Of a stretch of 64,000 nt of DNA, positions 7,911 through 36,853 are shown one piece after another. A model generated the notes under the pieces. It saw nothing but the letters and a program-made list of their open reading frames with translations, made no database searches and had not been told where the DNA came from. Position 1 is the stretch's first letter. The number at the start of each line of letters is the position of its first letter. Source of the DNA: Clostridia bacterium (GTDB taxonomy: Bacteria > Bacillota > Clostridia > Oscillospirales > Acutalibacteraceae). The position numbers and the translations under genes were made by a program. The DNA is taken from contig JAFTUG010000013.1 in the NCBI GenBank assembly GCA_017466365.1, positions 1 through 64,000 on the forward strand. The letters run 5' to 3'.

Positions 7911-8855
7911 ATGAACAATATTAAGAGGTTTGATGTTGCGGTAAACAGTCTGTCAAAAAAGCTTTCCGAATTGTTCCTTGCCTTGGGCGATGATGATAAA
8001 GACAGAATTCGGGAAATAAGAATAAGAAACCGACGGCCTGTAACGGTAATCACGGAGAAAGGTGCGGAATTTCTGACCTTCTCGGGCAGACTGACGCAGG
8101 TTTATTCTGATCTTACTGTTAAAACAGATGAAAACGAGGTTTGCGAGATTTTCAGAAGACTTTGCGGATATTCCGTTCACAGCTTTTCTGATGCCGTCAA
8201 CCGAGGCTTTATAACAATAAACGGAGGTCACAGAGCAGGAGTTGCGGGAACGGCCGTTACCGAAAACGGAAAGATTACCGCTGTTCGGGACATATGCACC
8301 GTAAATTTAAGAATAGCAAGGGAGATAAAAGGGGCTGCGGATGATATTATGAAACTGTTTTTTGCAGACGGTCTTTGTTCAATAATTATTGCAGGCCCTC
8401 CTTCAAGCGGAAAAACAACGGTGTTGCGAGATCTTGCACGTCAGCTTTCGGGCGCAAACGGGTTATGCCGAAAAACCTTTATTTGCGATGAGAGAGGCGA
8501 AATCGGCGCTTCGTTTTCGGGAATAGAGCAGAATGATATCGGAATAAACAGCGATTTGATTACTTCCTATCCTAAAGCAGAGGGGATAATTATAGGGCTG
8601 AGATCATTTTCTCCGGATATTATTATTTGCGATGAGGTTTCAGCTTATGAAGAAGCCGAAGCGATTATTTCGGGCGTTAACAGCGGAGTGTGCTTTGCCT
8701 TGAGTATTCATGCACGGAATGAAAAGGAGCTTAAATCAAAAACTCTGCTTAAAAAGCTGCTTGAAACGGGCGAATTCAGCAAAGTTATTCTTCTTTCTGG
8801 GACAGATGTAGGAAAAACGGAGAAAATCTTTGAGGCAGGTGATTTGATTGCTTAA
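7911..8855 (+). CDS. spoIIIAA: Stage III sporulation protein AA, secretion-type ATPase
   Basis: 314 residues. It has a Walker A motif 'AGPPSSGKTT' near residue 162, a following 'ICDERGEIGASFSG' and a Walker B-like 'IIICDEVSAYEEA' near 238. This is the cytoplasmic ATPase of the SpoIIIA-SpoIIQ feeding channel that links mother cell and forespore during engulfment, related to type II/IV secretion and pilus ATPases. Length is usual for the family (about 305-340). It begins the operon with spoIIIAB overlapping its end by 8 bases. In B. subtilis the operon is under sigma-E, and only a weak candidate element is visible upstream. Confidence 0.95.
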   Translation: MNNIKRFDVAVNSLSKKLSELFLALGDDDKDRIREIRIRNRRPVTVITEKGAEFLTFSGRLTQVYSDLTVKTDENEVCEIFRRLCGYSVHSFSDAVNRGFITINGGHRAGVAGTAVTENGKITAVRDICTVNLRIAREIKGAADDIMKLFFADGLCSIIIAGPPSSGKTTVLRDLARQLSGANGLCRKTFICDERGEIGASFSGIEQNDIGINSDLITSYPKAEGIIIGLRSFSPDIIICDEVSAYEEAEAIISGVNSGVCFALSIHARNEKELKSKTLLKKLLETGEFSKVILLSGTDVGKTEKIFEAGDLIA

Positions 8856-9360
8856 GGCTGCTGCAATGGTTTTGCTCGCCGTCGGATTTTCTCTTGCAGG
8901 CAGATGGGCGGCGGCAATGCAGAAAAAAAGAGTATCGGTGATAAGCGAGATCCTGCTTATGATTAATGTTGTTGAATCACGGCTTCGGTATTCACATTTG
9001 CCTGTTTCGGATTTACTTCGTGTGCTTAACGAAAACACAGGTCTTTCAAAGCTCGGTTTCATAAAAAACTGCCGTGAAAAGGTTTGTTTCGGTGAACCGT
9101 TTCCTGCCGCATGGCAGGAGTGCGTTGAAGCGGAAACGGAGCTTTGCAGATTGCTTCCCGAGTCCTCGAAGCATCTCGCAAGCTTCGGTGCGGATATAGG
9201 CTCTTCCGACCTTGAAAGTCAGCTTTCAGGTTGTGAATATTATAAACAGATTTTTTCCGCCGAGCTTGAGCTTGAGCGGGAAAAAAGTCAAAGATATACA
9301 AAGCTTTTTCCGTCTTTGGGTCTGCTTCTCGGAATTTCCGCGGCGATTATGATTGTTTGA
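8848..9360 (+). CDS. spoIIIAB: Stage III sporulation protein AB
   Basis: 170 residues starting at TTG 8848 inside the end of spoIIIAA, preceded by AGGCAGGTGA. Membrane segments sit at both ends (about 5-25 and 155-170) and flank a soluble helical region with the family motif 'LLMINVVESRLRYSHLPVSD'. SpoIIIAB resembles GspF-type inner-membrane platform proteins and is thought to help organise the SpoIIIA channel with the AA ATPase. Operon position and length match the family. Confidence 0.93.
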   Translation: MLKAAAMVLLAVGFSLAGRWAAAMQKKRVSVISEILLMINVVESRLRYSHLPVSDLLRVLNENTGLSKLGFIKNCREKVCFGEPFPAAWQECVEAETELCRLLPESSKHLASFGADIGSSDLESQLSGCEYYKQIFSAELELEREKSQRYTKLFPSLGLLLGISAAIMIV

Positions 9361-9374
9361 GAAGAGGTGCTTTT

Positions 9375-9569
9375 ATGGATATAACCATTGTAATCAAAAT
9401 AGCTTCGGTAGGAATAATTGTTGCGATTTTGAATTCGATTCTTGTTCGCTCCGGGCGGGATGAATATGCAATGATAACCATTCTTGCCGGAGTGGTTGTG
9501 GTGCTTATGATGCTGATACCGCATTTTTCACAGCTTCTTGATACGGTAAAAACCATTGTTGAATTTTAA
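9375..9569 (+). CDS. spoIIIAC: Stage III sporulation protein AC
   Basis: 64 residues with two membrane helices around a short polar loop 'LVRSGRDEYAMITI'. Size and order match SpoIIIAC, a small integral protein of the mother-cell part of the feeding channel. ATG 9375 is chosen because AGAGGTG stands about 7 bases before it; an in-frame extension upstream would overlap spoIIIAB and lacks a site. Confidence 0.93.
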   Translation: MDITIVIKIASVGIIVAILNSILVRSGRDEYAMITILAGVVVVLMMLIPHFSQLLDTVKTIVEF

Positions 9570-9571
9570 GC

Positions 9572-9958
9572 ATGGATATAGTTAAAGCGGCATTTGTCGG
9601 AATTCTGACAGCTATTGTTTATGCTTTTTTGAGAAACATCAGACCCGAAGCGGCACCTCTCGCGGTGCTTGGAGGCTCGGCTGTTATTCTGACAGCTCTC
9701 GGCGGACGCTTTCTTGATATTTTCAGCGGTGCCGACGAAATGATGAATCTTGCGGGGCTTGGAAAAGAAAATATTTCGATATTGATGAAGTCGCTCGGAA
9801 TATTTGTTGTAACGCAGTTTGCCGCCGATATCTGTTATGATAATTCTTGCTCTTCAATTGCGGCGGCAGTAGAGCTTGCGGGAAGAATAGGTGCGGTTTA
9901 TCTCGCAATGCCCATGCTTGAAACCGTTGCGAGGCTTGCAATAGGACTAATAAGGTAG
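9572..9958 (+). CDS. spoIIIAD: Stage III sporulation protein AD
   Basis: 128 residues, four hydrophobic segments, including the family stretch 'MKSLGIFVVTQFAADICYD'. It is an integral membrane component of the SpoIIIA complex, partner of AC and AE. It starts 2 bases after the spoIIIAC stop with no strong Shine-Dalgarno, which suggests translational coupling. Confidence 0.93.
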   Translation: MDIVKAAFVGILTAIVYAFLRNIRPEAAPLAVLGGSAVILTALGGRFLDIFSGADEMMNLAGLGKENISILMKSLGIFVVTQFAADICYDNSCSSIAAAVELAGRIGAVYLAMPMLETVARLAIGLIR

Positions 9959-9967
9959 TTAAAACAT

Positions 9968-11101
9968 ATGAAACACAAAAAATCGACAGCTTTCATTCTG
10001 TTTATGATGTTATTATTCGCTTTGAACATAAATGCACATGCAAACATTGATGAATACGGCACGGACTGGCTTGAAACAAGCGGAGCAAATGAGCTTTCGG
10101 AGAAGCTTTCGGAGGATACACGGGGTTATCTCGAAAAGATAGGCTGTGAAGATATTGATTTTGAAAATCTTTTAGGTATATCTCTTTCGTCTGTATCTGA
10201 CTTGATTAAGGAAATGTTTTCGCAAGGACTCAAAGAGCCTGTTGAATGCCTTTTGAAAACAACGGGAGCAGTTATGCTCATAAGTGTTTGTTCCGGGTTC
10301 TTTCCTGACGATGAAAAAAGCAAAACCGTACTCAATCTTATTTGCGGAAGTTTTTTGATTATAGAAATATTTGTGCCTGCAACGGAAAGCGTAAAAGCTG
10401 CGGTATCTGCCATGGGTGCGTGTGCGGCATTTGAAAAGGCTCTTATACCTGTGCTTGCGGCTGTGGTTACCGTCAGCGGTAATCCTGCAAGTGCGCTTTC
10501 TGTTCAGGGTACGGCATTTGCGGCGGCGCAGTTTGTTGAGGCTCTTGCGGCAGAAACAATCATGCCTCTTATAGGCATATGCGGCGCACTTAACATTACG
10601 GGTGCAATTCTTCCCACACTGCGTCTTTCGGCAATATCCGAAACCGTAAGGAAAACGGCGGTAACGTTTCTTGCATCTGCGGCGGGGCTTTTCACAGGCT
10701 TTTTATCTTTGAAAACAACACTTGCAGCATCAGTTGACAGCATGGCGGTTAAGGGAGTAAAGCTTGCGGCAAACACCTTTGTGCCGGTAATCGGCGGTGC
10801 AATAGGCGAGGCATATACCTCGGTGGTCGGGAGCTTATCGCTCATACGCAATACAATAGGAATATACGCAATAATTGCTTTTCTGGCGATAACTCTTCCT
10901 ATAATCATCAATCTTGCTTTGTGGACTCTTTCGTTAAGAATTGCATGCACGGTGAGTGATTTGCTGGATTGCCGACAATGTTCGGAGGTTATAAAAAGCA
11001 TCGCATTCGTTTTTTCAATGGTGAATACGTTGCTTTTGCTGTGTGCGGCGGTTTTTATTATATCGGCAGGTCTTATTGTGTTTATCAAAACGGGAGAGTA
11101 A
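9968..11101 (+). CDS. spoIIIAE: Stage III sporulation protein AE
   Basis: 377 residues. A cleavable-looking signal (about 1-25, ending INAHA), a soluble segment with 'GYLEKIGCEDIDFENLLGIS', then six to seven hydrophobic helices. SpoIIIAE is the largest membrane subunit of the forespore feeding channel and is related to permease-like proteins; in B. subtilis it needs SpoIIIJ (YidC-type insertase). Length agrees with the usual 390 or so. Embedded in the gapless spoIIIA operon. Confidence 0.94.
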   Translation: MKHKKSTAFILFMMLLFALNINAHANIDEYGTDWLETSGANELSEKLSEDTRGYLEKIGCEDIDFENLLGISLSSVSDLIKEMFSQGLKEPVECLLKTTGAVMLISVCSGFFPDDEKSKTVLNLICGSFLIIEIFVPATESVKAAVSAMGACAAFEKALIPVLAAVVTVSGNPASALSVQGTAFAAAQFVEALAAETIMPLIGICGALNITGAILPTLRLSAISETVRKTAVTFLASAAGLFTGFLSLKTTLAASVDSMAVKGVKLAANTFVPVIGGAIGEAYTSVVGSLSLIRNTIGIYAIIAFLAITLPIIINLALWTLSLRIACTVSDLLDCRQCSEVIKSIAFVFSMVNTLLLLCAAVFIISAGLIVFIKTGE

Positions 11102-25142: not shown

Positions 25143-25149
25143 ATTATCC

Positions 25150-25402
25150 AATGGCAATGACGGGAAGAAGTAACCGTTAAATTCGTTTCAGAGAGTCCCC
25201 GGGCGGTGAAAGGGGATAACGAAATACGAGTGAAATACATCCCCGAGCTGCTTTGCTGAACTTTCAGTAGGCAAAGCCGAGCGCGCCCGTTAAAGCGCAA
25301 GGGTATTTTTGAATACCCGCCGAGGAGTATGCCGTGAGGTATGCTCAAATAGAGGTGGTATCACGGTCAATTCGTCCTCTGTCATAGTGACAGAGGATTT
25401 TT
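25150..25402 (+). promoter_or_regulatory. T-box leader, tyrosine-type
   Basis: The leader carries the T-box sequence AGGTGGTATCACGG at 25353-25366 and a Rho-independent terminator TCCTCTGTCATAGTGACAGAGGA plus T run (25375-25402). The two are alternatives: uncharged tRNA stabilises the antiterminator. Stem I shows GGGGAT (25212-25217) pairing with ATCCCC (25239-25244). Two UAC triplets lie between (25225-25227, 25236-25238); the second, in GAAAUACA just before the 3' arm, is the likelier Tyr specifier. It stands directly upstream of tyrS, so it senses charged tRNA-Tyr. Confidence 0.9.
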
Positions 25403-25435: not shown

Positions 25436-26659
25436 ATGCAAATTTATGAAGAACTTGTTGCAAGAGGTCTTATTGCACAGGTAACGGATGAAAAAGAAAT
25501 CAGAGAGCTTGTCAACAACGGAAAGGCTGTTTTTTATATTGGCTTTGACCCCACCGCTGACAGCCTCCATGTAGGCCATTTCATGGCTCTTTGCCTTATG
25601 AAGAGACTTCAGATGGCAGGTAACAAGCCCATCGCTCTTATCGGTGGCGGTACGGGTATGATCGGCGATCCTTCAGGCAGAAGTGACCTTCGTCAGGTTT
25701 TGACAAAGGAAACAATTCAGCACAATGTTGACTGCTTCAAAAAGCAGATGAGCCGTTTTATTGATTTCAGCGAAGGCAAGGCAATGCTTATCAACAATGC
25801 GGATTGGCTTCTCGACCTCAACTATGTTGACGTTCTCCGTGAAGTAGGCGCTTGTTTTTCAGTTAACAACATGCTCCGTGCGGAATGCTATAAGCAGAGA
25901 ATGGAAAAGGGTCTCTCTTTCCTTGAATTCAACTATATGATTATGCAGAGCTATGACTTCTATCATCTCTTTAAGGAATACGGCTGCAACATGCAGTTCG
26001 GCGGCGATGACCAGTGGTCAAATATGCTCGGCGGCACAGAGCTTATTCGTAAAAAGCTCGGCAAGGATGCTTATGCAATGACTATTACTCTTCTCCTCAA
26101 TTCCGAGGGCAAGAAGATGGGTAAAACAGCTTCGGGTGCCGTTTGGCTTGACCCTGAAAAGACATCACCCTATGAATTCTATCAGTATTGGCGCAATGTT
26201 GCCGATGATGATGTTCTCAAGTGCATCCGTATGCTCACCTTCCTTCCTCTTGAAGAAATCGATGCTATGGATTCATGGGAAGGCAGTCAGCTCAACACAG
26301 CCAAGGAAATCCTTGCATTCGAGCTTACAAAGCTTGTTCACGGAGAAGAAGAAGCTGCAAAGGCACAGGCAGCTGCAAAGGCTATTTTCAGCGGTGCAGC
26401 AGACCTTGACAATATGCCTTCAACAACTCTTTCAGACGAAGATTTCACAGATGATTCAATTGATATCCTTGATATCCTTATGAAAGCTGAAATCACAAAG
26501 TCAAGAGGCGAGGGCAGAAGACTTGTTCAGCAGGGCGGTATTTCCGTTGACGATGCAAAGGTAACAGATTTCACTATGAGCTTTGCAAAGGATGCTCTTA
26601 AGGAAAATCCCATCGTTGTTAAGAAGGGCAAGAAGATATTCCATAAGATAGAGGCATAA
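25436..26659 (+). CDS. tyrS: Tyrosyl-tRNA synthetase
   Basis: 407 residues, class I synthetase. '[12 protein letters not shown]' holds the HIGH-type motif (H45-V-G-H48), 'KMGKT' (K227-T231) is the KMSKS-type loop, and the tyrosine pocket reads '[20 protein letters not shown]'. A C-terminal S4 domain (about 340-405) binds the tRNA variable arm. Controlled by the T-box leader 34 bases upstream. Its codon use is visibly more biased (GGC, CTT, AAG-rich) than the surrounding genes, as expected for high expression. Confidence 0.96.
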
Positions 26660-27593: not shown

Positions 27594-27622
27594 TTGACAA
27601 CCCGAGGGAAAATGCTTATAAT
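27594..27622 (+). promoter_or_regulatory. Consensus sigma-A promoter for the cobalamin operon
   Basis: TTGACA 27594-27599, exactly 17 bases, TATAAT 27617-27622. Both boxes are perfect consensus, so transcription is expected to start strongly and be controlled later by the riboswitch. Confidence 0.85.
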
Positions 27623-27650
27623 ATTTATCAATTGAATATAAGTTAAACGA

Positions 27651-27815
27651 GATACGGTTTGAAAAGTTGTAAGCTGAGTAAATCAAAAGGGAAATCAGGT
27701 TCGAGTCCTGAACAACCGCCATTACTGTATTTGACAAAGTCGGAGCATAAGCTGTTGATTATTGCTCTGCGTGGTAGCTCCACGGTTTCATAAGTCAGAA
27801 AACCTGCCGTGTCTT
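27651..27815 (+). ncRNA. Cobalamin riboswitch aptamer
   Basis: The conserved core is readable: AAAAGGGAA at 27685-27693, the paired ATCAGGT / AGTCCTGA segment, ACCGCCATTACTGT at 27715-27728, and the B12 box AGTCAGAAAACCTGCC at 27793-27808. Class II-type peripheral detail cannot be settled by eye. It lies about 30 bases downstream of a consensus promoter and upstream of two intrinsic terminators, so adenosyl- or other cobalamin should switch off the genes behind it, all of which look like B12 capture and import functions. Confidence 0.88.
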
Positions 27816-27842
27816 TTTTAGGTTTAACACAACTTTGGTGAG

Positions 27843-27898
27843 AAGAGTGCAACCGATTTATTGCCGCATAACGGCTTTGAGTTGCAGCTCTTTTTTTG
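27843..27898 (+). terminator. Riboswitch expression-platform terminator
   Basis: AAGAGTGCAAC pairs with GTTGCAGCTCTT around an inner GCCG/CGGC hairpin, followed by seven T. Confidence 0.8.
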
Positions 27899-27940
27899 TT
27901 TTGCAATTCAAGGTTGTTGTGCCGTGTTTTAAGTCTGTTG

Positions 27941-27977
27941 TACTCTTTTGACCTTTTGGGTTGAAAGAGTATTTTTT
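27941..27977 (+). terminator. Second tandem terminator in the B12 leader
   Basis: TACTCTTTTGACC pairs with GGGTTGAAAGAGTA (two G-U pairs), then six T, only 12 bases before the Shine-Dalgarno of the next gene. Tandem terminators after one aptamer are uncommon. Confidence 0.75.
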
Positions 27978-27994
27978 ATAAGGAGGGATGATAA

Positions 27995-28243
27995 GTGACA
28001 CCTGATGAGAAAAAGTTTTGGGCGGAAGAGCTTTTGCGTCAAAAAAGCAAGGAACTCGGCAGACTGCCCAGAAAGGATGATTTCGATGAGGCCACAAGAT
28101 CACGAATCAAAGCCTTCCTCGGACCTTGGCCGAGAGCCTTGGAAGCTGCCGGCTTGAAGGAGGCAAAAGAAACGCCGAAAAAACCGAAGAAAAGCAAAAA
28201 GCAGAAGAAATCCTTTAATTCAAAACCTAAAGAAGGAGAATAA
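27995..28243 (+). CDS. Small basic protein with homing-endonuclease-associated (HNH) repeat
   Basis: 82 residues from GTG 27995, with AAGGAGGG 7 bases before. Residues about 10-55 fit the 'homing endonuclease associated repeat': 'SKELGRLPRKDDFDEATRSR' then 'IKAFLGPWPRALEAAGL', a short helical DNA-binding-like module. The tail is Lys/Pro-rich (KKPKKSKKQKK). No nuclease domain is present. It is the first gene behind the cobalamin riboswitch, 5 bases before the secreted B12-system protein; I know no role for such a protein in B12 uptake, and a nucleic-acid-binding regulator is only a guess. Confidence 0.7.
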   Translation: MTPDEKKFWAEELLRQKSKELGRLPRKDDFDEATRSRIKAFLGPWPRALEAAGLKEAKETPKKPKKSKKQKKSFNSKPKEGE

Positions 28244-28248
28244 CAGTA

Positions 28249-31131
28249 ATGAGTAAAAAAATAATAAGCATGTTAATTATTTTTGCAATGATTTTCACCG
28301 CAATACCCTTAACAATATCGGCAATCGAACCCGATACAGTATATATTTCAATCAGCGATGACAGTCAGTTTGTAACCGACAGCAACGGCACTCCGATGGC
28401 ATTTTATCCCGTGACCCTTGATGAACTTGCAGAGATTGATCTCGGCGATTATTATCTTGACGGATATGCATACGATGCAGACGGTGACGGAAACTATGAA
28501 CTCACCGCACTTCACCTTTATATTTATGTTCACGAAGTAATACTCGGACTTGATTGGTCGGATGTATACGTCAGCGGAAGTGCAGGAAGCATTTACTTTG
28601 CAGGCGGTCTTTTCGGTTTCTCCGATGAGAATCTCCGCTATGACCTTAACGGTGCTTATCCTGCAGTTGACGGTTGGGGTTTGACCGCAGATCGGATTGT
28701 TCTCAATAACGGGGACTTTCTGAATATTGCACACTACACAAGCTGGGCGTTCTGGGGTGACAGCACAACAGGATTCCATTACTTTACCGATTCACAAGGA
28801 AATCTCAATCATACATATAACACTTCCGTTAATGAAGAACTTGAGCTTGGTTTGGTTCGCAGTTATTCAGACTGGATGAACGGCGGAGCTGCGGCATTTG
28901 ACCCTGAAATCGGTTATACCGTTTATTACGGAACCGATTACGGTATTCCCACAGGCAGCACAGTTACAGACGATAACGGACTTGTAAATATTTCGTTCCC
29001 CTCAGGCGGAACATGGTATGTGTGGACTGACGGCGGTTACGGCATGGAGAACCCTGAAGATATCGTTTCTGCACCTGCTTTTGCAACCGTAAAAGTAATA
29101 AAGGCAGAAGCTGAACCGATTGATGTTTTTGTAACTGTAGCCGACAAAGGCAAAGTAGTGATGGCAAACGAGGTTGTTACTGTAACCGACCTTGATAAGA
29201 GCGGTGATTTTAATGTGGATGAAGTTTTATTCGCTGCTCATGAAGATGCTTATGACGAAGGTTCCCAAGCAGGTTACGCTTCTGAAATGACTCCTTACGG
29301 TCTTAGTATCACTAAGCTTTGGGGCGATGACAGCGGAAATTATGGCTATTGGCTCAACGACACTTCATGCTGGAGCCTTGCAGACACAGTAAACGCAGGT
29401 GATTCGGTTGTCGCATTCGTTTATCAGAATACTGAAGTCTGGGATTCCTATTCAAAATTCTCGCAAAACAGTTATACCGCTATGGCTGAAACTTCTGCCA
29501 TTGTGACTCTTGAAAAAGCGGGATATGATGCAAACTGGAACACGGTTTTTGAGGCTCACAAGGGTGCAGCCCTAAAAATCTATGACAGCGCATTCAATGA
29601 AATCTCAGCAGAAGCATATAAAGTTACCGACAATGGTGACGGAACATACTCCGTGATTGTAAAGAACATCGGCGAATATACCGTTGCCGCTTATGACAAC
29701 GCAACACCCATTGTTCCCGCACTTTGCACACTTACTGTTACGGAAAATCCCGATGTTGTATATGCCGATGCAGTTGAAGCAAAAATCGATGACATCGGCA
29801 ATGTGAATATTTTTAATTACAAAAAGATTTATGCAGCCCGTGAAGCATACGATGCACTCACCGATTCACAGAAAACGCTTGTTGAAAACTATTTCGTTCT
29901 CACCGATGCAGAAAATTCTTTCGCAACCTTGCTTGCAGATGCTTCGGATGCAGACCACAAGGCAATTTATGAAGCAACGGGAGCATATATCAGTGCTCTC
30001 GGCACGCCTTCTGTCGGTTCAACCGGCGGCGAATGGATGGTAATTGACCTTACCCGTTCAGGCTACGACTGTCCCGAAGGATATTATGAAAACGTTGTTA
30101 ATTATGTAAAAGAAAACATCAATGATAAAGAGCAGCTCCACAGAGCAAAGTCAACAGATAATTCACGAGTTATTCTTGCTCTTACCTCGGCAGGTTATGA
30201 TGTAACCGACGTTGACGGTCATAATCTTCTTATGGGTCTGACCGATATGACATATCTGAAAAAGCAGGGTATCAACGGTCCAATCTGGGCATTGATTGCA
30301 TTTGACTGCCACGGCTATGAAATTCCCGTTAATGCAGATGCAACCGAGCAAGCTACCCGTGAAAAGATTATTGCTTATATTCTTGAAAAACAGTTTGAGG
30401 ACGGCGGCTGGGCACTTTCGGGCAAAGTTGCCGACCCTGATATGACAGGAATGGCAATTCAATCACTTGCTCCGTATTACGAAACAAATGCCGAAGTCAA
30501 AGCGGCGATTGACAAAGCAATTATCTGTCTTTCAGAAAAACAGTATAATAACGGCGGATTCGGTTCAATCGACGGTATTTGCAGCGAATCATGCGCCCAG
30601 GTTATCGTTGCGTTAACCGCACTCGGCATTAATCCCGAAACAGATCCTCGATTTGTAAAGAACGGTGTTTCCGTTGTTGATGCAATGTGTCTGTTTGCTG
30701 TTGAAGGCGGCGGATTTGCACATATTCCTGATGCAGGCATAAACGGTATGGCAACAGAGCAGGCGCAGTATGCTCTGGCATCATATTTCCGTTTCCTCGA
30801 CGGCAAAACACCACTTTATGATATGAGCGATGTTGATATTTACACAAAAGATGAAAAAGCAGCCGATGCAGTTGAAGCAATGATTTCCGCAATCGGCACA
30901 GTTACCGCAGAAAGCAAAGATGCTATCGAAGAAGCAAGGACTGCTTACGATGCTCTTACAGACGAACAAAAAGCACTCGTAGAAAACCACGGGGTTCTTA
31001 TTCAGGCAGAAACAGATTTCAATGAACTGATAAATGAAAAAGATATCAGTATCTTTGAAAAGCTTATTAATTGGTTTATAAAAGCATTCGATTGGATAAT
31101 TTCTTTTGCTAAAGGCATATTCTCGTTCTGA
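28249..31131 (+). CDS. Secreted transcobalamin/intrinsic-factor-like protein (alpha6/alpha6-barrel)
   Basis: 960 residues. A signal peptide (1-25, ending TISA) is followed by two beta-rich domains, each with a short helix motif: 'LTALHLYIYVHEVILG' near 85 and 'FNVDEVLFAAHEDAY' near 325. They resemble DUF4430-type beta-domains with 'YGYWLN'-like turns. At about 510-560 and 865-930 lie helical repeats 'AYDALT(D/-)xQKxLVEN'. Residues about 580-860 are an alpha6/alpha6 (squalene-cyclase-like) region with 'FEDGGWALSGKVADPDMTGM' and 'YNNGGFGSIDGICSESCAQV', the fold of the cobalamin-binding alpha-domain of intrinsic factor. The C-terminus is an amphipathic aromatic helix, with no LPXTG. Its place behind a B12 riboswitch and before an ECF transporter suggests surface capture of corrinoids. 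Confidence 0.75.
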   Translation: MSKKIISMLIIFAMIFTAIPLTISAIEPDTVYISISDDSQFVTDSNGTPMAFYPVTLDELAEIDLGDYYLDGYAYDADGDGNYELTALHLYIYVHEVILGLDWSDVYVSGSAGSIYFAGGLFGFSDENLRYDLNGAYPAVDGWGLTADRIVLNNGDFLNIAHYTSWAFWGDSTTGFHYFTDSQGNLNHTYNTSVNEELELGLVRSYSDWMNGGAAAFDPEIGYTVYYGTDYGIPTGSTVTDDNGLVNISFPSGGTWYVWTDGGYGMENPEDIVSAPAFATVKVIKAEAEPIDVFVTVADKGKVVMANEVVTVTDLDKSGDFNVDEVLFAAHEDAYDEGSQAGYASEMTPYGLSITKLWGDDSGNYGYWLNDTSCWSLADTVNAGDSVVAFVYQNTEVWDSYSKFSQNSYTAMAETSAIVTLEKAGYDANWNTVFEAHKGAALKIYDSAFNEISAEAYKVTDNGDGTYSVIVKNIGEYTVAAYDNATPIVPALCTLTVTENPDVVYADAVEAKIDDIGNVNIFNYKKIYAAREAYDALTDSQKTLVENYFVLTDAENSFATLLADASDADHKAIYEATGAYISALGTPSVGSTGGEWMVIDLTRSGYDCPEGYYENVVNYVKENINDKEQLHRAKSTDNSRVILALTSAGYDVTDVDGHNLLMGLTDMTYLKKQGINGPIWALIAFDCHGYEIPVNADATEQATREKIIAYILEKQFEDGGWALSGKVADPDMTGMAIQSLAPYYETNAEVKAAIDKAIICLSEKQYNNGGFGSIDGICSESCAQVIVALTALGINPETDPRFVKNGVSVVDAMCLFAVEGGGFAHIPDAGINGMATEQAQYALASYFRFLDGKTPLYDMSDVDIYTKDEKAADAVEAMISAIGTVTAESKDAIEEARTAYDALTDEQKALVENHGVLIQAETDFNELINEKDISIFEKLINWFIKAFDWIISFAKGIFSF

Positions 31132-31141
31132 TTTTTTCATG

Positions 31142-31171
31142 GTCGGCTGTTGTGTTTTAACAACAGCCGAC
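31142..31171 (+). other. Intercistronic hairpin without T run
   Basis: GTCGGCTGTTGT / ACAACAGCCGAC, a perfect 12-bp stem with a short loop and no U tract, between the two surface-protein genes. It may set mRNA stability or partial read-through. Confidence 0.65.
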
Positions 31172-31201
31172 ACCATAACAATCCGTCAGGAGGCAAGTTT
31201 T

Positions 31202-32662
31202 ATGAAAAAGAAGAAAATAGCAAATATAGTGATGGTCGCAGTCATTATAGCTATTGCGGCAGCGGGAATTTTTGGCGTCGGTCATATCAAAGGTTGGTTT
31301 GACAAATCCGATGAAAACACCGCTGTTCTTACTGATTTCCGTGGCATCATAACATTGCAGCGTGACGGAGTTGCCTATGCAACAACTGATAAAACTGTTC
31401 TCCGCAAAGGAGATAAAATTACTTGCGACCCCGGTGCAACCGTCAGAATTGCTTTGGGCGAAAACTATATTGCTCTCGGTCAGAATGCCGATGCAGAAAT
31501 CATAAATCCCGTTTCCGACGAGTTTGCCCTTAAAGTTAATGTCGGCGAAGCTTTTGTTAACACAAGCAATTCTGTTTCACTTGAATTTGCAGATAAGCAG
31601 ACTGAAATCAGTAATGCAGTGGCAAACTTAAGTGTCCGCAAAGGGGCACAAAGTATAAGCGTTTATCAAGGCTCTGTCGGTGAAGCAACCGAGGGTCAGA
31701 TGCTTGAATGGATTGGCGATAAGGAATCCATCAGAGATTTCTCTGTTAAAAGCCTTAACAGTTTCAATATTTCGCAAATACGAAAAGCCAACGAAACAAA
31801 AAAACTTGTTTTCTCAAATGGTGATCTGGACGAGCTTGAAAATGAACGATGGGACGAGATGCACGCTTCGGCTGAAACAACAACCGCGGATAATACTGCA
31901 GCGGAAACCGTAAAAACAACAAAAGCCAAAGAAACAACAGCAAAAGCGGCAGCATCCGTTAAAGCCCCAAAAGAGACTGCTTCAACAATCGCAGCTATAA
32001 CAAAATTGATAACCGAAAAATCAACAAGAGAGAAAACTACAAGAAAACCGACAACAAGACGTGACTATTCTCTCAACATTACAGCTTCAAAAGCAGCTGC
32101 AGAAGGCACAACAACCACCCAGGAAACAGAAACTGTCAAACCCGAAACAACAACGAAACCCGTTAGCACAACCAAGCCTTCGGAAACGGTAAAACCCGAA
32201 GTAACAACAAAGCCCGCCAAAACAACCAGACCTATTGAAACAACTGAGAAAAAACTAACTTGCACCATAACCATACGCTGTGATACAATTCTTGATAATA
32301 TGGATGACCTTGACCCTGCAAAGGCACCCTATGTTCCCGAGGACGGAGTCATTTTGAGGGAAGTGACGGTTGAGTTCACAGAGGGTGAAACCGTTTTTGA
32401 TGTTTTAAACAAAGTATGCAGAGAGTATAACATTCCGATTGAATACAGCTGGACACCGATGTATGACAGCTATTATATCGAGGGTATCAATAATTTATAT
32501 GAGTTTGACTGTGGCACGGAATCAGGTTGGATGTATAAAGTAAACGGCTGGTTTCCGAATTACGGTTGCTCAAGCTTCTATTTAACGGGCGGCGAAACAA
32601 TCGTTTGGTGTTATACCTGCAAAGGGCTCGGTGAAGATGTCGGTGCCGAGCGATGGGAGTAA
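31202..32662 (+). CDS. Membrane-anchored FecR-like + DUF4430 (transcobalamin beta-domain-like) protein
   Basis: 486 residues from ATG 31202 (AGGAGG before it). A short cytoplasmic KKKK start and one TM helix (about 7-25) are followed by a FecR-like beta domain (about 45-165, 'VLRKGDKITCDPGATVRIAL'), a long Thr/Lys-rich stalk (about 220-350) and a C-terminal DUF4430 domain with 'FEFD'-like 'YEFDCGTESGWMYKVNGWFP', 'NYGCSSFYL' and 'GETIVWCYTC'. DUF4430 corresponds to the beta-domain of intrinsic factor/transcobalamin. Together with the barrel protein upstream this completes both halves of such a carrier. The stalk would place the domain beyond the cell wall. Confidence 0.8.
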   Translation: MKKKKIANIVMVAVIIAIAAAGIFGVGHIKGWFDKSDENTAVLTDFRGIITLQRDGVAYATTDKTVLRKGDKITCDPGATVRIALGENYIALGQNADAEIINPVSDEFALKVNVGEAFVNTSNSVSLEFADKQTEISNAVANLSVRKGAQSISVYQGSVGEATEGQMLEWIGDKESIRDFSVKSLNSFNISQIRKANETKKLVFSNGDLDELENERWDEMHASAETTTADNTAAETVKTTKAKETTAKAAASVKAPKETASTIAAITKLITEKSTREKTTRKPTTRRDYSLNITASKAAAEGTTTTQETETVKPETTTKPVSTTKPSETVKPEVTTKPAKTTRPIETTEKKLTCTITIRCDTILDNMDDLDPAKAPYVPEDGVILREVTVEFTEGETVFDVLNKVCREYNIPIEYSWTPMYDSYYIEGINNLYEFDCGTESGWMYKVNGWFPNYGCSSFYLTGGETIVWCYTCKGLGEDVGAERWE

Positions 32663-32663
32663 T

Positions 32664-33554
32664 ATGAGAGAAGATGCTTTTTCAAAATTTCATCCTGCCG
32701 TAAATCTGATTTTTTTCATCGGAGCGATGTGCTTTGGTGTTCTTTTGCAGCACCCCGTATATTTGCTCGCAGGAATGTTTGCAAGCGGAGTATATTATTT
32801 TCTTCTGAACGGAAGAAAAGGCATAAAAGCAATTGCCGGAATGATACCGCTGTTTATATTTATCACGCTTTTTAATCCGATTGTAAATACTCGGGGAATA
32901 ACGGTTCTTTTTTCGCTGTTTGGCAGACCGTACACTTTGGAGGCGCTGATTTACGGTGTGGCTGTGGCTGCAATCTTTGTTGTTATGCTTCTGTGGTTCG
33001 GATGCTACGGCAAGGTTTTGACAGGTGATAAATTTACATGCCTTTTCAGCAATATTATGCCGTCAATCGCTTTGCTTCTTGTTATGGTTTTTCGTATGAT
33101 TCCGAATTTTGTCCGCAAAGCAAAGCAGATAATTGCTGCAAGAAGCTCTGTCGGAAAAGGTACAGAGGCTTCGGCTTCAATAAAAGATAAGCTCACATCG
33201 GGAATGAGCGTTATCGGAGTTTTAACATCTTGGGCATTGGAAGGCAGTATCGTGACGGGTGATTCAATGAGAGCACGTGGCTACGGAACGGCAAAGCGTA
33301 CAAGCTTTATGGTATATCGCATGACAAAAGCTGATTGGGTTTTGATTGTTATAATGCTTGCAATGCTCGGTGTTGTTATCGGTTTTGCCGCAAGCGGCTG
33401 CATGTATGCGGAATTTCTTCCCGAAAGGAATATTGCACCGATAGAAGGAGTCAACATAATCGCTTTTATCACATATTTGGGATTTTTGTTGATTCCGACG
33501 TTTCTGCACATAAAGGAGGTTATACAGTGGAACATTTCGAGATACGGAATTTAA
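32664..33554 (+). CDS. ecfT: ECF transporter transmembrane component EcfT (copy 1)
   Basis: 296 residues with about five to six membrane helices. The N-terminus 'SKFHPAVNLIFFIGAMC' and the coupling-helix motifs 'ARSSVGKG' and 'SMRARGYGTAKR' are typical of EcfT/CbiQ, whose two Ala-Arg-Gly-type motifs contact the ATPases. ATG 32664 lies 1 base after the DUF4430 gene stop. It overlaps the ATPase gene by 28 bases. It forms the scaffold of a cobalamin-type ECF importer, inferred from the riboswitch. Confidence 0.87.
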   Translation: MREDAFSKFHPAVNLIFFIGAMCFGVLLQHPVYLLAGMFASGVYYFLLNGRKGIKAIAGMIPLFIFITLFNPIVNTRGITVLFSLFGRPYTLEALIYGVAVAAIFVVMLLWFGCYGKVLTGDKFTCLFSNIMPSIALLLVMVFRMIPNFVRKAKQIIAARSSVGKGTEASASIKDKLTSGMSVIGVLTSWALEGSIVTGDSMRARGYGTAKRTSFMVYRMTKADWVLIVIMLAMLGVVIGFAASGCMYAEFLPERNIAPIEGVNIIAFITYLGFLLIPTFLHIKEVIQWNISRYGI

Positions 33555-35188
33555 GCTTTTCATATCCGACCGCCAAAGGTAAAAAGTCCCTTGATGATGT
33601 ATCGCTTAAAATAGAAAAAGGTGAGTATGCGGTTATTTGCGGAAAGTCAGGCAGCGGAAAAACAACTCTGCTGAAACATCTTAAAACTGTGTTGACTCCT
33701 CACGGAAAAAGAAGCGGAGAAATATATTTCAACGGATTCCCGCTTGAAAAAGTGAGCAACCGAGAGCAATCAGCAAAAATCGGATATGTAATGCAGAATC
33801 CCGATGATCAGATTGTAACCGATAAAGTATGGCATGAGCTTGCTTTCGGCTTGGAAAGTCTTGGCTGCGATCAAAAAAGCATGCGTTCCCGTGTTGCGGA
33901 AATGGCATGCTATTTCGGAATTCAGGATTGGTTTCATAAAGATGTTGCAACTCTTTCGGGTGGTCAAAAACAGCTATTGAATCTCGCTTCAATAATGGCA
34001 ATGCAGCCTGAATTGCTGATATTGGATGAGCCTACGAGTCAGCTTGACCCTATTGCTGCCTCCGATTTTCTTAATACCGTAAGAAAAATAAATGTTGAGC
34101 TTGGAACAACGGTTATTATAACCGAGCATCGTCTTGAAGATATTTTCCCTTATGCAGACCGTGCGGTTGTGATGGATAACGGACGTATTGTCGCCAATGA
34201 TACACCGAGAAATGTCGGTAAGCTTTTGTATGAGCAAGGCAATCCCATGTTTACGGCGATGCCTGCACCTGTTCGTGTTTTTTACAATGCAAACGGAAAA
34301 GGCGATTGCCCTTTAACCGTGCGTGAGGGCAGAACGTGGCTGAATAAAGAGTTTGCGGAAGAACCAAAGATTACCGAAATCCCTTTTGAAACAATAGAGG
34401 ATGATATCGAAAATCCTGCAATTTCCCTTAAAGAACTCTGGTTTCGTTATGAGAAGGACAGCCCGGATATTCTTCGAGGCGTCAGTCTGGATGTGCCTGC
34501 AGGAAGCTTATCCGCAATAGTCGGAGGAAACGGTGCAGGAAAATCCACAATGTTAAAAGCTGTCTGCGGCATTTGCAAGCCCTACCGAGGTAAAATCAAG
34601 GTTTTCGGCAAAGCCGTAAACAAATATAAATCAGCGGAGCTTTTTAAAAATTGCATTTCGATGCTTCCGCAAGACCCAAAGAGTTTGTTTGTGAAAAAAA
34701 CTGTCGCCGAAGACCTTGCCGAAATGACGAAAGACAGAAAAAAGATAACCGAGGCTGCTGAAATCTGTCAGATAACAGACCTCATGGATAATCACCCTTA
34801 TGATTTGTCGGGCGGTGAACAGCAGAGAGCGGCGCTTGCCAAAGTGTTGCTTACCGAGCCGAAGCTTCTTCTGCTTGATGAACCCACAAAAGGCATGGAC
34901 AGCTTTTTCAAAGAAACCTTTGCATCTGTTCTTCAAAAATTGAAGGATCAGGGAATAACCGTCATAATTGTGTCGCACGATGTTGAATTCTGTGCAAAAT
35001 ATGCCGACAGAATCAGCATGTTCTTTGACGGTCAGATATTAACCACCGACACACCGCAGAAATTCTTCGGAAGCAACAATTTCTATACTACGGTGGCAAA
35101 CCGAATGAGCAGGCACATATTCCGAAATGCCGTTACAAGTGAAAATGTTGTTGAATTATATCGGAAAAACAAAGGAGAAAAAGCATGA
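33527..35188 (+). CDS. ecfA: ECF transporter fused ATPase (EcfA-EcfA')
   Basis: 553 residues from GTG 33527 (AAAGGAGG 9 bases before). It has two complete ABC ATPase domains in tandem: Walker A 'GKSGSGKTT' (near 39) with signature 'LSGGQKQLLNLA' and Walker B 'LLILDEPTSQ', then Walker A 'GGNGAGKST' (near 330) with 'LSGGEQQRAALAK' and 'LLLLDEPTKG'. Fused ATPases occur in dedicated (group I) ECF systems. This one powers the two EcfT and the S component encoded around it. Start sites upstream of 33527 would run through the ecfT gene in another frame and are rejected. Confidence 0.9.
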   Translation: MEHFEIRNLSFSYPTAKGKKSLDDVSLKIEKGEYAVICGKSGSGKTTLLKHLKTVLTPHGKRSGEIYFNGFPLEKVSNREQSAKIGYVMQNPDDQIVTDKVWHELAFGLESLGCDQKSMRSRVAEMACYFGIQDWFHKDVATLSGGQKQLLNLASIMAMQPELLILDEPTSQLDPIAASDFLNTVRKINVELGTTVIITEHRLEDIFPYADRAVVMDNGRIVANDTPRNVGKLLYEQGNPMFTAMPAPVRVFYNANGKGDCPLTVREGRTWLNKEFAEEPKITEIPFETIEDDIENPAISLKELWFRYEKDSPDILRGVSLDVPAGSLSAIVGGNGAGKSTMLKAVCGICKPYRGKIKVFGKAVNKYKSAELFKNCISMLPQDPKSLFVKKTVAEDLAEMTKDRKKITEAAEICQITDLMDNHPYDLSGGEQQRAALAKVLLTEPKLLLLDEPTKGMDSFFKETFASVLQKLKDQGITVIIVSHDVEFCAKYADRISMFFDGQILTTDTPQKFFGSNNFYTTVANRMSRHIFRNAVTSENVVELYRKNKGEKA

Positions 35189-35889
35189 AAAAATCAAATA
35201 TTGCAATGCTTCTTGTGTTTCTCGCTTTAATTCCGTTGACTTTATTTTTGGGAGAAAAGCTTCCAGGCAAAGGATATTACATAACCGGTGTTCTTATTAT
35301 TGCCGAACTTATGCTGCCGTTTTTTATGATGTTTGAAAAGAGAAGGCCGCAGGCGAGAGAGCTTGTTGTTATTGCCGTTATGTGTACCATTGCCATTATC
35401 GGACGTGTTGCAATTCCCATTCCCCACTTCAAAGCGGCATATGCCGTTATTATGCTCACGGGTATTGCATTCGGTCCTGAAACGGGGTTTATCGTAGGAG
35501 CAATTACCGCATTTGCGAGCAACTTTTTTTACGGTCAGGGAGCATATATGCCTTGGCAGATGATGGCTTACGGAGCGGGCGGAATGCTATCGGGATTTGT
35601 GTTTCTGAATAATAAAGTTCCGAGAAAGCCCTGGATTATGGCAGTGTTCGGCTTCCTTTCTGTAATCCTTTGGATAGGTCCGCTGCTTGATACTTCTCAT
35701 ATTTTCCTTATGATGCCTGAAATCAATTTTTCTTCCGTTACGGCATCTTTGGCATCGGGCTTCCCTGTTAATGTAAGTCAGGGTGTTTGTACCGCATTAA
35801 TGATGTTTCTGCTTGGAAAACCCTTGCTCGAAAAACTGGACAGAATTAAGCTGAAATACGGAATGATGGAGGATGAAAATGGGGTTTGA
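35185..35889 (+). CDS. ECF transporter S component, probably cobalamin-specific
   Basis: 234 residues, about six membrane helices. 'ITGVLIIAELMLPFFMMFEK', 'LTGIAFGPETGFIVGAITAF' and 'QGAYMPWQMMAYGAGGMLSG' fit the substrate-binding S-component family (CbrT-like group). The start overlaps ecfA by ATGA. Specificity for cobalamin is inferred from the riboswitch and the transcobalamin-like proteins upstream, not from a known binding motif. Confidence 0.83.
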   Translation: MKKSNIAMLLVFLALIPLTLFLGEKLPGKGYYITGVLIIAELMLPFFMMFEKRRPQARELVVIAVMCTIAIIGRVAIPIPHFKAAYAVIMLTGIAFGPETGFIVGAITAFASNFFYGQGAYMPWQMMAYGAGGMLSGFVFLNNKVPRKPWIMAVFGFLSVILWIGPLLDTSHIFLMMPEINFSSVTASLASGFPVNVSQGVCTALMMFLLGKPLLEKLDRIKLKYGMMEDENGV

Positions 35890-36760
35890 GCTTTGTCATC
35901 CTGCCGTTAATCTGATTTATTTTACAGTTGTAATATACGGTATGCTTTGCTTCAGGCATCCTGCTTTTTTGATTGTTTCATATTTAAGTGCGGCTGCATA
36001 CAGCATAAAACGAAACGGCATAAGAGCGTTTGTTTTCGATGCCGCATTGCTGCCGTTAACGGGCGCGTTTGCGCTTTATTACAGCTCGTATACCCATTTC
36101 GGAGTAACCGTTATTCAGCAGAATTTTATCGGCAACAGCATTACCGTTGAATCTTTGGTTTACGGCGTTGTGCTGGGACTTTCTGTTTCGGGTGCAATGA
36201 TTTGGTTTTCCTGTATCTTCTCTGTTTTTTCTTCGGATAAGGTAATTTATTTGTTCGGAAAAGCAAGCCCGAAGCTTTCGCTCTTTCTTTCCGTTCTTCT
36301 CCGTATGGTGCCGAGAATCAAAAAGGAAGCCGGAAAAATAAATACGGCACAGCGGGGGATAGGCAGAGGTGTAAATCAGGGAAATATATTTGCACGTTTA
36401 AGAAACTGCATCCGTATTTTTTCGATACTGATTACATGGACAACAGACTCACTGACATCAGTCTCCGAATCAATGCAAAGCCGCGGAAGCCTGCTTCGGG
36501 GCAGAAAAGCTTTTTCAATCTACCGATTTGATAACCGTGACCGTGCGTATGTTATCGGTATGTTTGTTTGCATAACGCTCACGGTAATGGGAGTAATGCT
36601 TAAACAGACGGACATTGTTTATGACCCTAAAATCATTATCGCTCCTATAACCTCAATGTCGTATGTTTTTTATATCGGCTATGCCGTTTTGTGTCTTATG
36701 CCGCTCGGATTGGAGCTTTGGACGGAATATAAATTCCGAAAAGCAAGAAAGGCGATTTGA
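35879..36760 (+). CDS. ecfT: ECF transporter transmembrane component EcfT (copy 2)
   Basis: 293 residues, a diverged paralog of the EcfT at 32664: 'LCHPAVNLIYFTVVIYGMLC' at the start, 'AQRGIGRG' and 'SMQSRGSLLRGR' in the coupling region, five to six TM helices. ATG 35879 is preferred over 35873 since GGAGG is 7 bases before it. A dedicated ECF system with two distinct T subunits and one double ATPase suggests a heterodimeric scaffold. Last gene of the operon; a terminator follows at 36823. Confidence 0.85.
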   Translation: MGFELCHPAVNLIYFTVVIYGMLCFRHPAFLIVSYLSAAAYSIKRNGIRAFVFDAALLPLTGAFALYYSSYTHFGVTVIQQNFIGNSITVESLVYGVVLGLSVSGAMIWFSCIFSVFSSDKVIYLFGKASPKLSLFLSVLLRMVPRIKKEAGKINTAQRGIGRGVNQGNIFARLRNCIRIFSILITWTTDSLTSVSESMQSRGSLLRGRKAFSIYRFDNRDRAYVIGMFVCITLTVMGVMLKQTDIVYDPKIIIAPITSMSYVFYIGYAVLCLMPLGLELWTEYKFRKARKAI

Positions 36761-36822
36761 AAGCATTGAAAAAAAGAACAGAAACGCTCGGAAAATTCTG
36801 CGTCTGTACTTCATAATCACAT

Positions 36823-36853
36823 AAAACCCGGAATGCAGTGCACTCCGGGTTTT
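36823..36853. terminator. Bidirectional terminator, CTCGGARTGCA hairpin family
   Basis: AAAACCCGGA-aTGCAGTGCAc-TCCGGGTTTT. It serves the ECF operon on the plus strand and the tiny ORF on the minus strand. Confidence 0.85.

Follow-up and report, generated by a model that had tools for sequence, protein, structure and literature searches.

The window, meaning the entire 64,000-nucleotide stretch analyzed, belongs to a genome of 2.06 Mb in 20 contigs that is estimated to be 79.6% complete. It contains a cobalamin riboswitch leader followed, in order, by an HNH_repeat ORF, a barrel protein, a stalk protein, and the T, A-A, S and second T proteins of an ECF importer (Table 1). A single unit holding a secreted barrel protein, a stalked DUF4430 protein and an ECF module had been proposed in a first-pass annotation, and all of these parts were located, between positions 28249 and 36760. 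That annotation was silent on the HNH_repeat ORF, which sits between the leader and the barrel gene and resembles ORFs in the operons of relatives, and on the presence of two T-type proteins.

Table 1. Features of the operon, in window coordinates.
Feature	Position	Strand	Basis
Sigma-70-type promoter, TTGACA-17-TATAAT	27594..27622	+	12/12 consensus positions (consensus match only)
Cobalamin riboswitch aptamer, RF00174	27638..27825	+	48.9 bits, gathering cut-off 31.5, E 3.4e-9
Expression platform, long hairpin and terminator (27940-27972)	27825..27985	+	Folding, terminator scan
82-aa HNH_repeat ORF	27995..28243	+	PF18780, 42.7 bits, cut-off 26
Secreted 960-aa protein with alpha6/alpha6 barrel	28249..31131	+	N-terminal hydrophobic signal-like segment, structure model
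Alpha6/alpha6 barrel domain as modeled	29956..30864	+	Residues ~570-865, pLDDT 95.2
486-aa membrane-anchored stalk protein	31202..32662	+	N-terminal hydrophobic segment, Thr-rich stalk, C-terminal DUF4430
DUF4430 beta domain as modeled	32249..32659	+	pLDDT 95.0
EcfT-type protein 1	32631..33554	+	PF02361, 21.2 bits, under cut-off 25
Fused double ECF ATPase, A-A (start set by eye)	33530..35188	+	TIGR04520, 369.1 bits, cut-off 315
CbrT-like S component	35185..35889	+	PDB match 6fnp_A
EcfT-type protein 2	35873..36760	+	PF02361, 25.5 bits, cut-off 25

The consensus promoter and cobalamin aptamer of the first-pass annotation were both recovered, the latter accepted by the Rfam model and the sole cobalamin riboswitch detected in this 79.6% complete genome. 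Folding of positions 27825-27985 gave a single long hairpin (z -8.7). Of two terminators previously claimed in the leader, the site at 27940-27972 passes a terminator scan and the candidate at approximately 27843-27898 was picked by eye alone. The leader can be aligned among relatives, and a reading of its hairpin as a mobile element was therefore dropped.

Structure prediction bore out the claimed alpha6/alpha6 barrel, the fold found in the animal carrier family of intrinsic factor (IF), haptocorrin (HC) and transcobalamin (TC). By sequence, one of 21 members matched Pfam PF01122, the alpha domain of this family, at E 0.14, a value that does not place the barrel within it, and the barrel profile found no solved IF or TC chain at E values up to 10. 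No IF or TC chain stood among the best 50 matches listed when the model was compared by structure; the nearest sequence and fold matches among those listed were squalene-hopene cyclase and other enzymes. The earlier proposal that the barrel is the counterpart of the IF/TC alpha domain agrees with the fold, and a kinship closer to IF than to other toroids is at most a possibility. Polar residues of the barrel, among them D686, D731, Q784, D799, K804, H825 and R848, are invariant in all 66 aligned rows. Residues ~290-400 of the same protein were considered as another DUF4430 and rejected: hhalign gave a probability of 0.5%, Pfam DUF4430 was not among the 25 families listed, and no HMM match was significant. 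In congeners, this N-terminal part is a separate 260-aa protein.

The stalk protein proved to have the predicted architecture, with DUF4430 (PF14478) scoring 63.1 bits against a cut-off of 23.8, and no other PF14478 match turned up in the genome (79.6% complete). Consistent with the suggestion that DUF4430 resembles the carrier beta domain, the top 14 rows of a structure search with the modeled domain were HC, IF and TC. No solved IF or TC chain was found by sequence, either with a DUF4430 profile (E up to 1) or with the single domain (E up to 10).

A complete ECF module had also been claimed, and its ATPases, T component and S component were all found. EcfT-type protein 1 matches the second T protein at 2e-32. 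As a single sequence searched against PDB, the S component first matched 6fnp_A (E 4.9e-6); as a 37-row profile, it matched this chain at E 9.4e-18, with a riboflavin uptake protein next (5.6e-6). We take chain A of 6fnp (182 residues) to be CbrT. HMM family scans of the S component matched no curated model named CbrT. The genome, at 79.6% complete, yielded eight matches to PF02310 (B12-binding) and none to the FecCD permease; thus, apart from this ECF system, no B12 importer was found in the incomplete genome.

The operon recurs within the genus, where 26 of 45 genomes, counting that of the window, have the barrel. According to gene maps, 17 of the 26 encode barrel and DUF4430 in a single ORF and six, the window among them, have a gene for each; the rest are two loci cut by contig ends and G009, which lay outside the set. 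The split layout described in the first-pass annotation is therefore real in the window and one of several, fused forms occurring in the same genus. In a quick tree of 41 barrels, all 16 fused rows shared one side of a single branch (SH-aLRT 100), and the window grouped with rows having a separate DUF4430 gene, some of which also carry DUF4430 on the barrel ORF. A B12 riboswitch over the curated cut-off lies directly upstream in 17 of the 26 loci (RF00174 in 13, RF01689 in four), with matches below cut-off in two more (L070 and L074) and none in five (L065, L066, L067, L069 and L071, the last starting near a contig end); one contig (G036) starts inside the operon and G009 was left out. Gene maps of the genus, and of the public loci and riboswitch-less loci discussed below, are longest-ORF calls, and ORF starts are consequently often too early.

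Among 200 family genomes, DUF4430 was found in 150 and the barrel in 54. The survey comprised 66 barrel places (from 69 rows, three second fragments being omitted), at least 150 DUF4430 places (the 150 listed were used), 149 RF00174 places and 28 RF01689 places. A same-strand riboswitch lay no more than 10 kb upstream at 37 of 66 barrel places, with none downstream and none on the opposite strand, and at 81 of the 150 listed DUF4430 places, with none downstream and two on the opposite strand. Many homologs thus lie behind B12 riboswitches, in favor of the first-pass annotation, which had named homologs never lying beside B12 genes as a point against it. Conversely, 72 of 149 RF00174 matches were followed, no more than 10 kb downstream, by a barrel or DUF4430 place from the lists. 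In these family genomes, a B12 riboswitch was not found at 29 of 66 barrel places or at 69 of 150 listed DUF4430 places.

A scan of public genomes for barrel relatives returned at least 532 stretches, of which 80 loci were kept, from Ruminococcus bromii, Paenibacillus, Lutispora, Clostridium, Terrisporobacter, Fusibacter, Vallitalea and others. The nearest named locus among the matches listed was in a metagenome-assembled genome of a Clostridia member from the rectum of a roe deer, with 97% identity in the barrel. Of 79 public loci with a barrel ORF, many cut by contig ends, 73 carried DUF4430 within or near the barrel ORF and 52 carried DUF4430, T, A-A and S together. Riboswitches were sought at 39 loci chosen by hand from the 80. 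In 31 of 39 genomes, an RF00174 match (30 over cut-off, one under) shared the contig of the barrel ORF and either stood no more than 2.5 kb upstream of it or overlapped the ORF's start, which is over-extended; in eight, none was found at that position. This count follows 36 coordinate mappings, of which five on other contigs (L156, two of L161, L197 and the second of L149) were excluded. Some relatives have SLH or dockerin domains on proteins of such operons.

Collectively, these data confirm the observation made in the first-pass annotation and support its interpretation, a role in B12 capture, for which corrinoid binding is what we infer. We favor, at a probability of roughly two in three, a corrinoid-scavenging operon in which barrel and DUF4430 would clamp the corrinoid and a CbrT-type S component with its A-A/T motor would import it. 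Low cellular adenosylcobalamin would leave the riboswitch leader open and allow the operon to be made. The secreted barrel protein, in the alpha role, would then come together at the cell surface with the tethered DUF4430 domain, in the beta role, and the two would enclose a corrinoid as in intrinsic factor. The corrinoid would presumably be handed on to the S component resembling CbrT, after which the A-A/T ECF motor would bring it into the cell.

The main rival makes DUF4430 the sole corrinoid binder, an accessory receptor of the ECF transporter that would supply CbrT, with the barrel acting as an anchor, a binder of glycans or B12 carriers, or a scaffold. Its case draws on the wider occurrence of DUF4430 in family genomes, on the SLH or dockerin domains of some relatives, and on a transcobalamin beta domain solved by itself with cyanocobalamin (5np4, according to its title). 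It draws also on riboswitch-less loci. Twelve riboswitch-less DUF4430 loci were picked by hand from the 69, away from listed barrel places; in eight of these an S component adjoins DUF4430 (six strong matches, E 2e-16 or better, and two weak, 5e-9 and 3e-5, at L246 and L249) and no barrel match was seen, and in four no S match lay beside DUF4430. Eight riboswitch-less barrel loci, hand-picked from 29, included two with S nearby, one with T only and five (L256-L260) with no T, A-A or S match nearby. Given the counts at these 20 loci, DUF4430 is more firmly linked to CbrT than the barrel is, and certain barrel proteins may have another job or supply a distant transporter. Nevertheless, we judge a DUF4430-only receptor unlikely in view of the frequent fusion of the two domains in the genus, the invariant polar residues of the barrel and its frequent position behind B12 riboswitches.

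Two further alternatives carry much less weight with us. The ligand might be something other than a corrinoid, such as another tetrapyrrole, cobalt or a lipid-like molecule, with the riboswitch merely tying the system to B12 status. Barrel and DUF4430 places where no B12 riboswitch was found, and the five barrel loci with no importer match nearby, fit this idea, which is nonetheless very improbable given the ECF-CbrT match of the S profile, the structural match of DUF4430 to a cobalamin-carrier beta domain and the presence of two B12 riboswitch families upstream of such operons. Least credible of all is that the barrel is a secreted enzyme, terpene-cyclase-like or a sugar-active toroid, present in the operon by chance. 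Its closest sequence and fold matches are indeed enzymes, but the toroid fold is common to the animal carriers, and the signal-like N-terminal segment, fusion to a carrier-type beta domain in relatives and association with B12 riboswitches all argue against it.

We rate the locus as a CbrT-type system whose surface capture step, with barrel and DUF4430 acting together, would be intrinsic-factor-like. The combination of domain shape, riboswitch and importer suggests a bacterium that may catch B12 much as stomach intrinsic factor does. A bolder and tentative reading is that Bacillota possess a widespread surface counterpart of intrinsic factor, its halves in trans or on one chain, attached to the S-layer in some species and bearing a dockerin in Ruminococcus bromii. 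This counterpart would share ancestry with the animal B12 carriers, and the IF/HC/TC design would then have arisen as, or been taken from, a bacterial nutrient-capture device. The recurrent riboswitch-associated operon of barrel, beta domain and CbrT supplies named proteins to test, some from cultured species, and bacterial material with which the origin of the animal B12 carriers can be examined. In the literature searched, mostly outside subscription journals, we recognized no description of a bacterial barrel and DUF4430 capture system, and a prior description is possible.

Compared with IF, HC and TC, the system is bacterial rather than animal, has its alpha-like and beta-like parts on two proteins rather than one chain (as in the fused congeners), anchors the beta part to the membrane whereas the animal carriers are soluble, and has a barrel not recognized by sequence as their alpha domain. 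According to the portions of PMC5997447 available, the ECF-CbrT deposited as 6FNP comes from Lactobacillus delbrueckii; it carries both cobalamin and cobinamide and, with a shared module, transports cobalamin by itself. The window likewise has A-A and T proteins with its S component but has a dedicated module, two T proteins and two extra extracytoplasmic proteins. CbrUVT is listed as a B12 importer of gut bacteria in the accessible part of PMC6593275. In the sections available of a proteomics study of Lacticaseibacillus rhamnosus (PMC9963975), an 'Additional lipoprotein component of putative cobalamin ECF transporter' is annotated and a DUF4430 protein, LGG_02295, adjoins rtpR; a lipoprotein linked to a cobalamin ECF transporter, perhaps of the same kind as LGG_02295, thus has an earlier record, and those sections give no barrel, structure or mechanism. 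The proposed capture step may also be likened to that of Bacteroides BtuG and BtuH, which capture B12 at the surface before import, and by family name neither appeared among the window's HMM family matches. The part of PMC8941943 available states that the BtuH binding domain has no known structural homologs and reports, for Eubacterium siraeum, a BtuH homolog neighboring a predicted ECF cobamide transporter. BtuH cargo is said likely to cross via BtuB, whereas the cargo of the window's surface proteins would enter through an ECF transporter.

DUF4430 proteins in some relatives of the window operon carry S-layer homology domains (table), and in the loci L147 and L154 these ORFs include barrels as well. 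The barrel/DUF4430 protein of Ruminococcus bromii ATCC 27255 carries a type I dockerin, which suggests attachment to a cohesin scaffold.

Within the N-terminal part of the window barrel protein, approximately residues 285–404 are without a Pfam match in the window copy. LWG and GY..N motifs are conserved in this stretch, and its counterpart in congeners is a separate 260-aa protein. Small ORFs resembling the 82-aa HNH_repeat ORF are repeatedly present in operons of relatives, as seen in gene maps. A second cobalamin riboswitch lies 3' of the fused barrel gene in four relatives (L076, L079, L080 and L081); it precedes the gene for the EcfT-type protein (T) in L076, L079 and L080, while in L081 the contig ends after the riboswitch, ahead of any T gene. 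The window also holds a T-box leader, and the ORF behind it presumably encodes a tyrosyl-tRNA synthetase.

Coordinates of features in the window and in loci of relatives
Feature	Locus	Position	Remark
Type I dockerin on barrel/DUF4430 protein	L137 (R. bromii ATCC 27255)	8140-10041	
S-layer homology domains on operon DUF4430 protein	L147	5464-11145	
S-layer homology domains on operon DUF4430 protein	L154	4837-9873	
S-layer homology domains on operon DUF4430 protein	L166	2914-8823	
S + double-ATPase single ORF, example	L137	11692-14532	
S + double-ATPase single ORF, example	L197	12202-14922	
T-type protein	window	32631-33554	
T-type protein	window	35873-36760	
82-aa HNH_repeat ORF	window	27995-28243	PF18780; between riboswitch and barrel gene
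N-terminal part of barrel protein	window	28249-29460	residues 1-404
T-box leader	window	25148-25382	122.7 bits; upstream of ORF 25436-26659

In three DUF4430 loci (L244, L246 and L249), a DUF4430 ORF of 144–162 aa adjoins a small ORF resembling an S component, the match being weak in L246 and L249. No double-ATPase or T matches were found near the pair in these loci, whose S-like proteins are possibly served by a shared ECF module.

In the window operon, the double ATPase and S component are flanked by two T-type proteins, whereas gene maps of many relatives show one. S component and double ATPase share one ORF for 30 of the 57 S proteins found. Such a fusion is odd, because S components are proposed, in an excerpt of PMC5997447, to leave the motor during the transport cycle.
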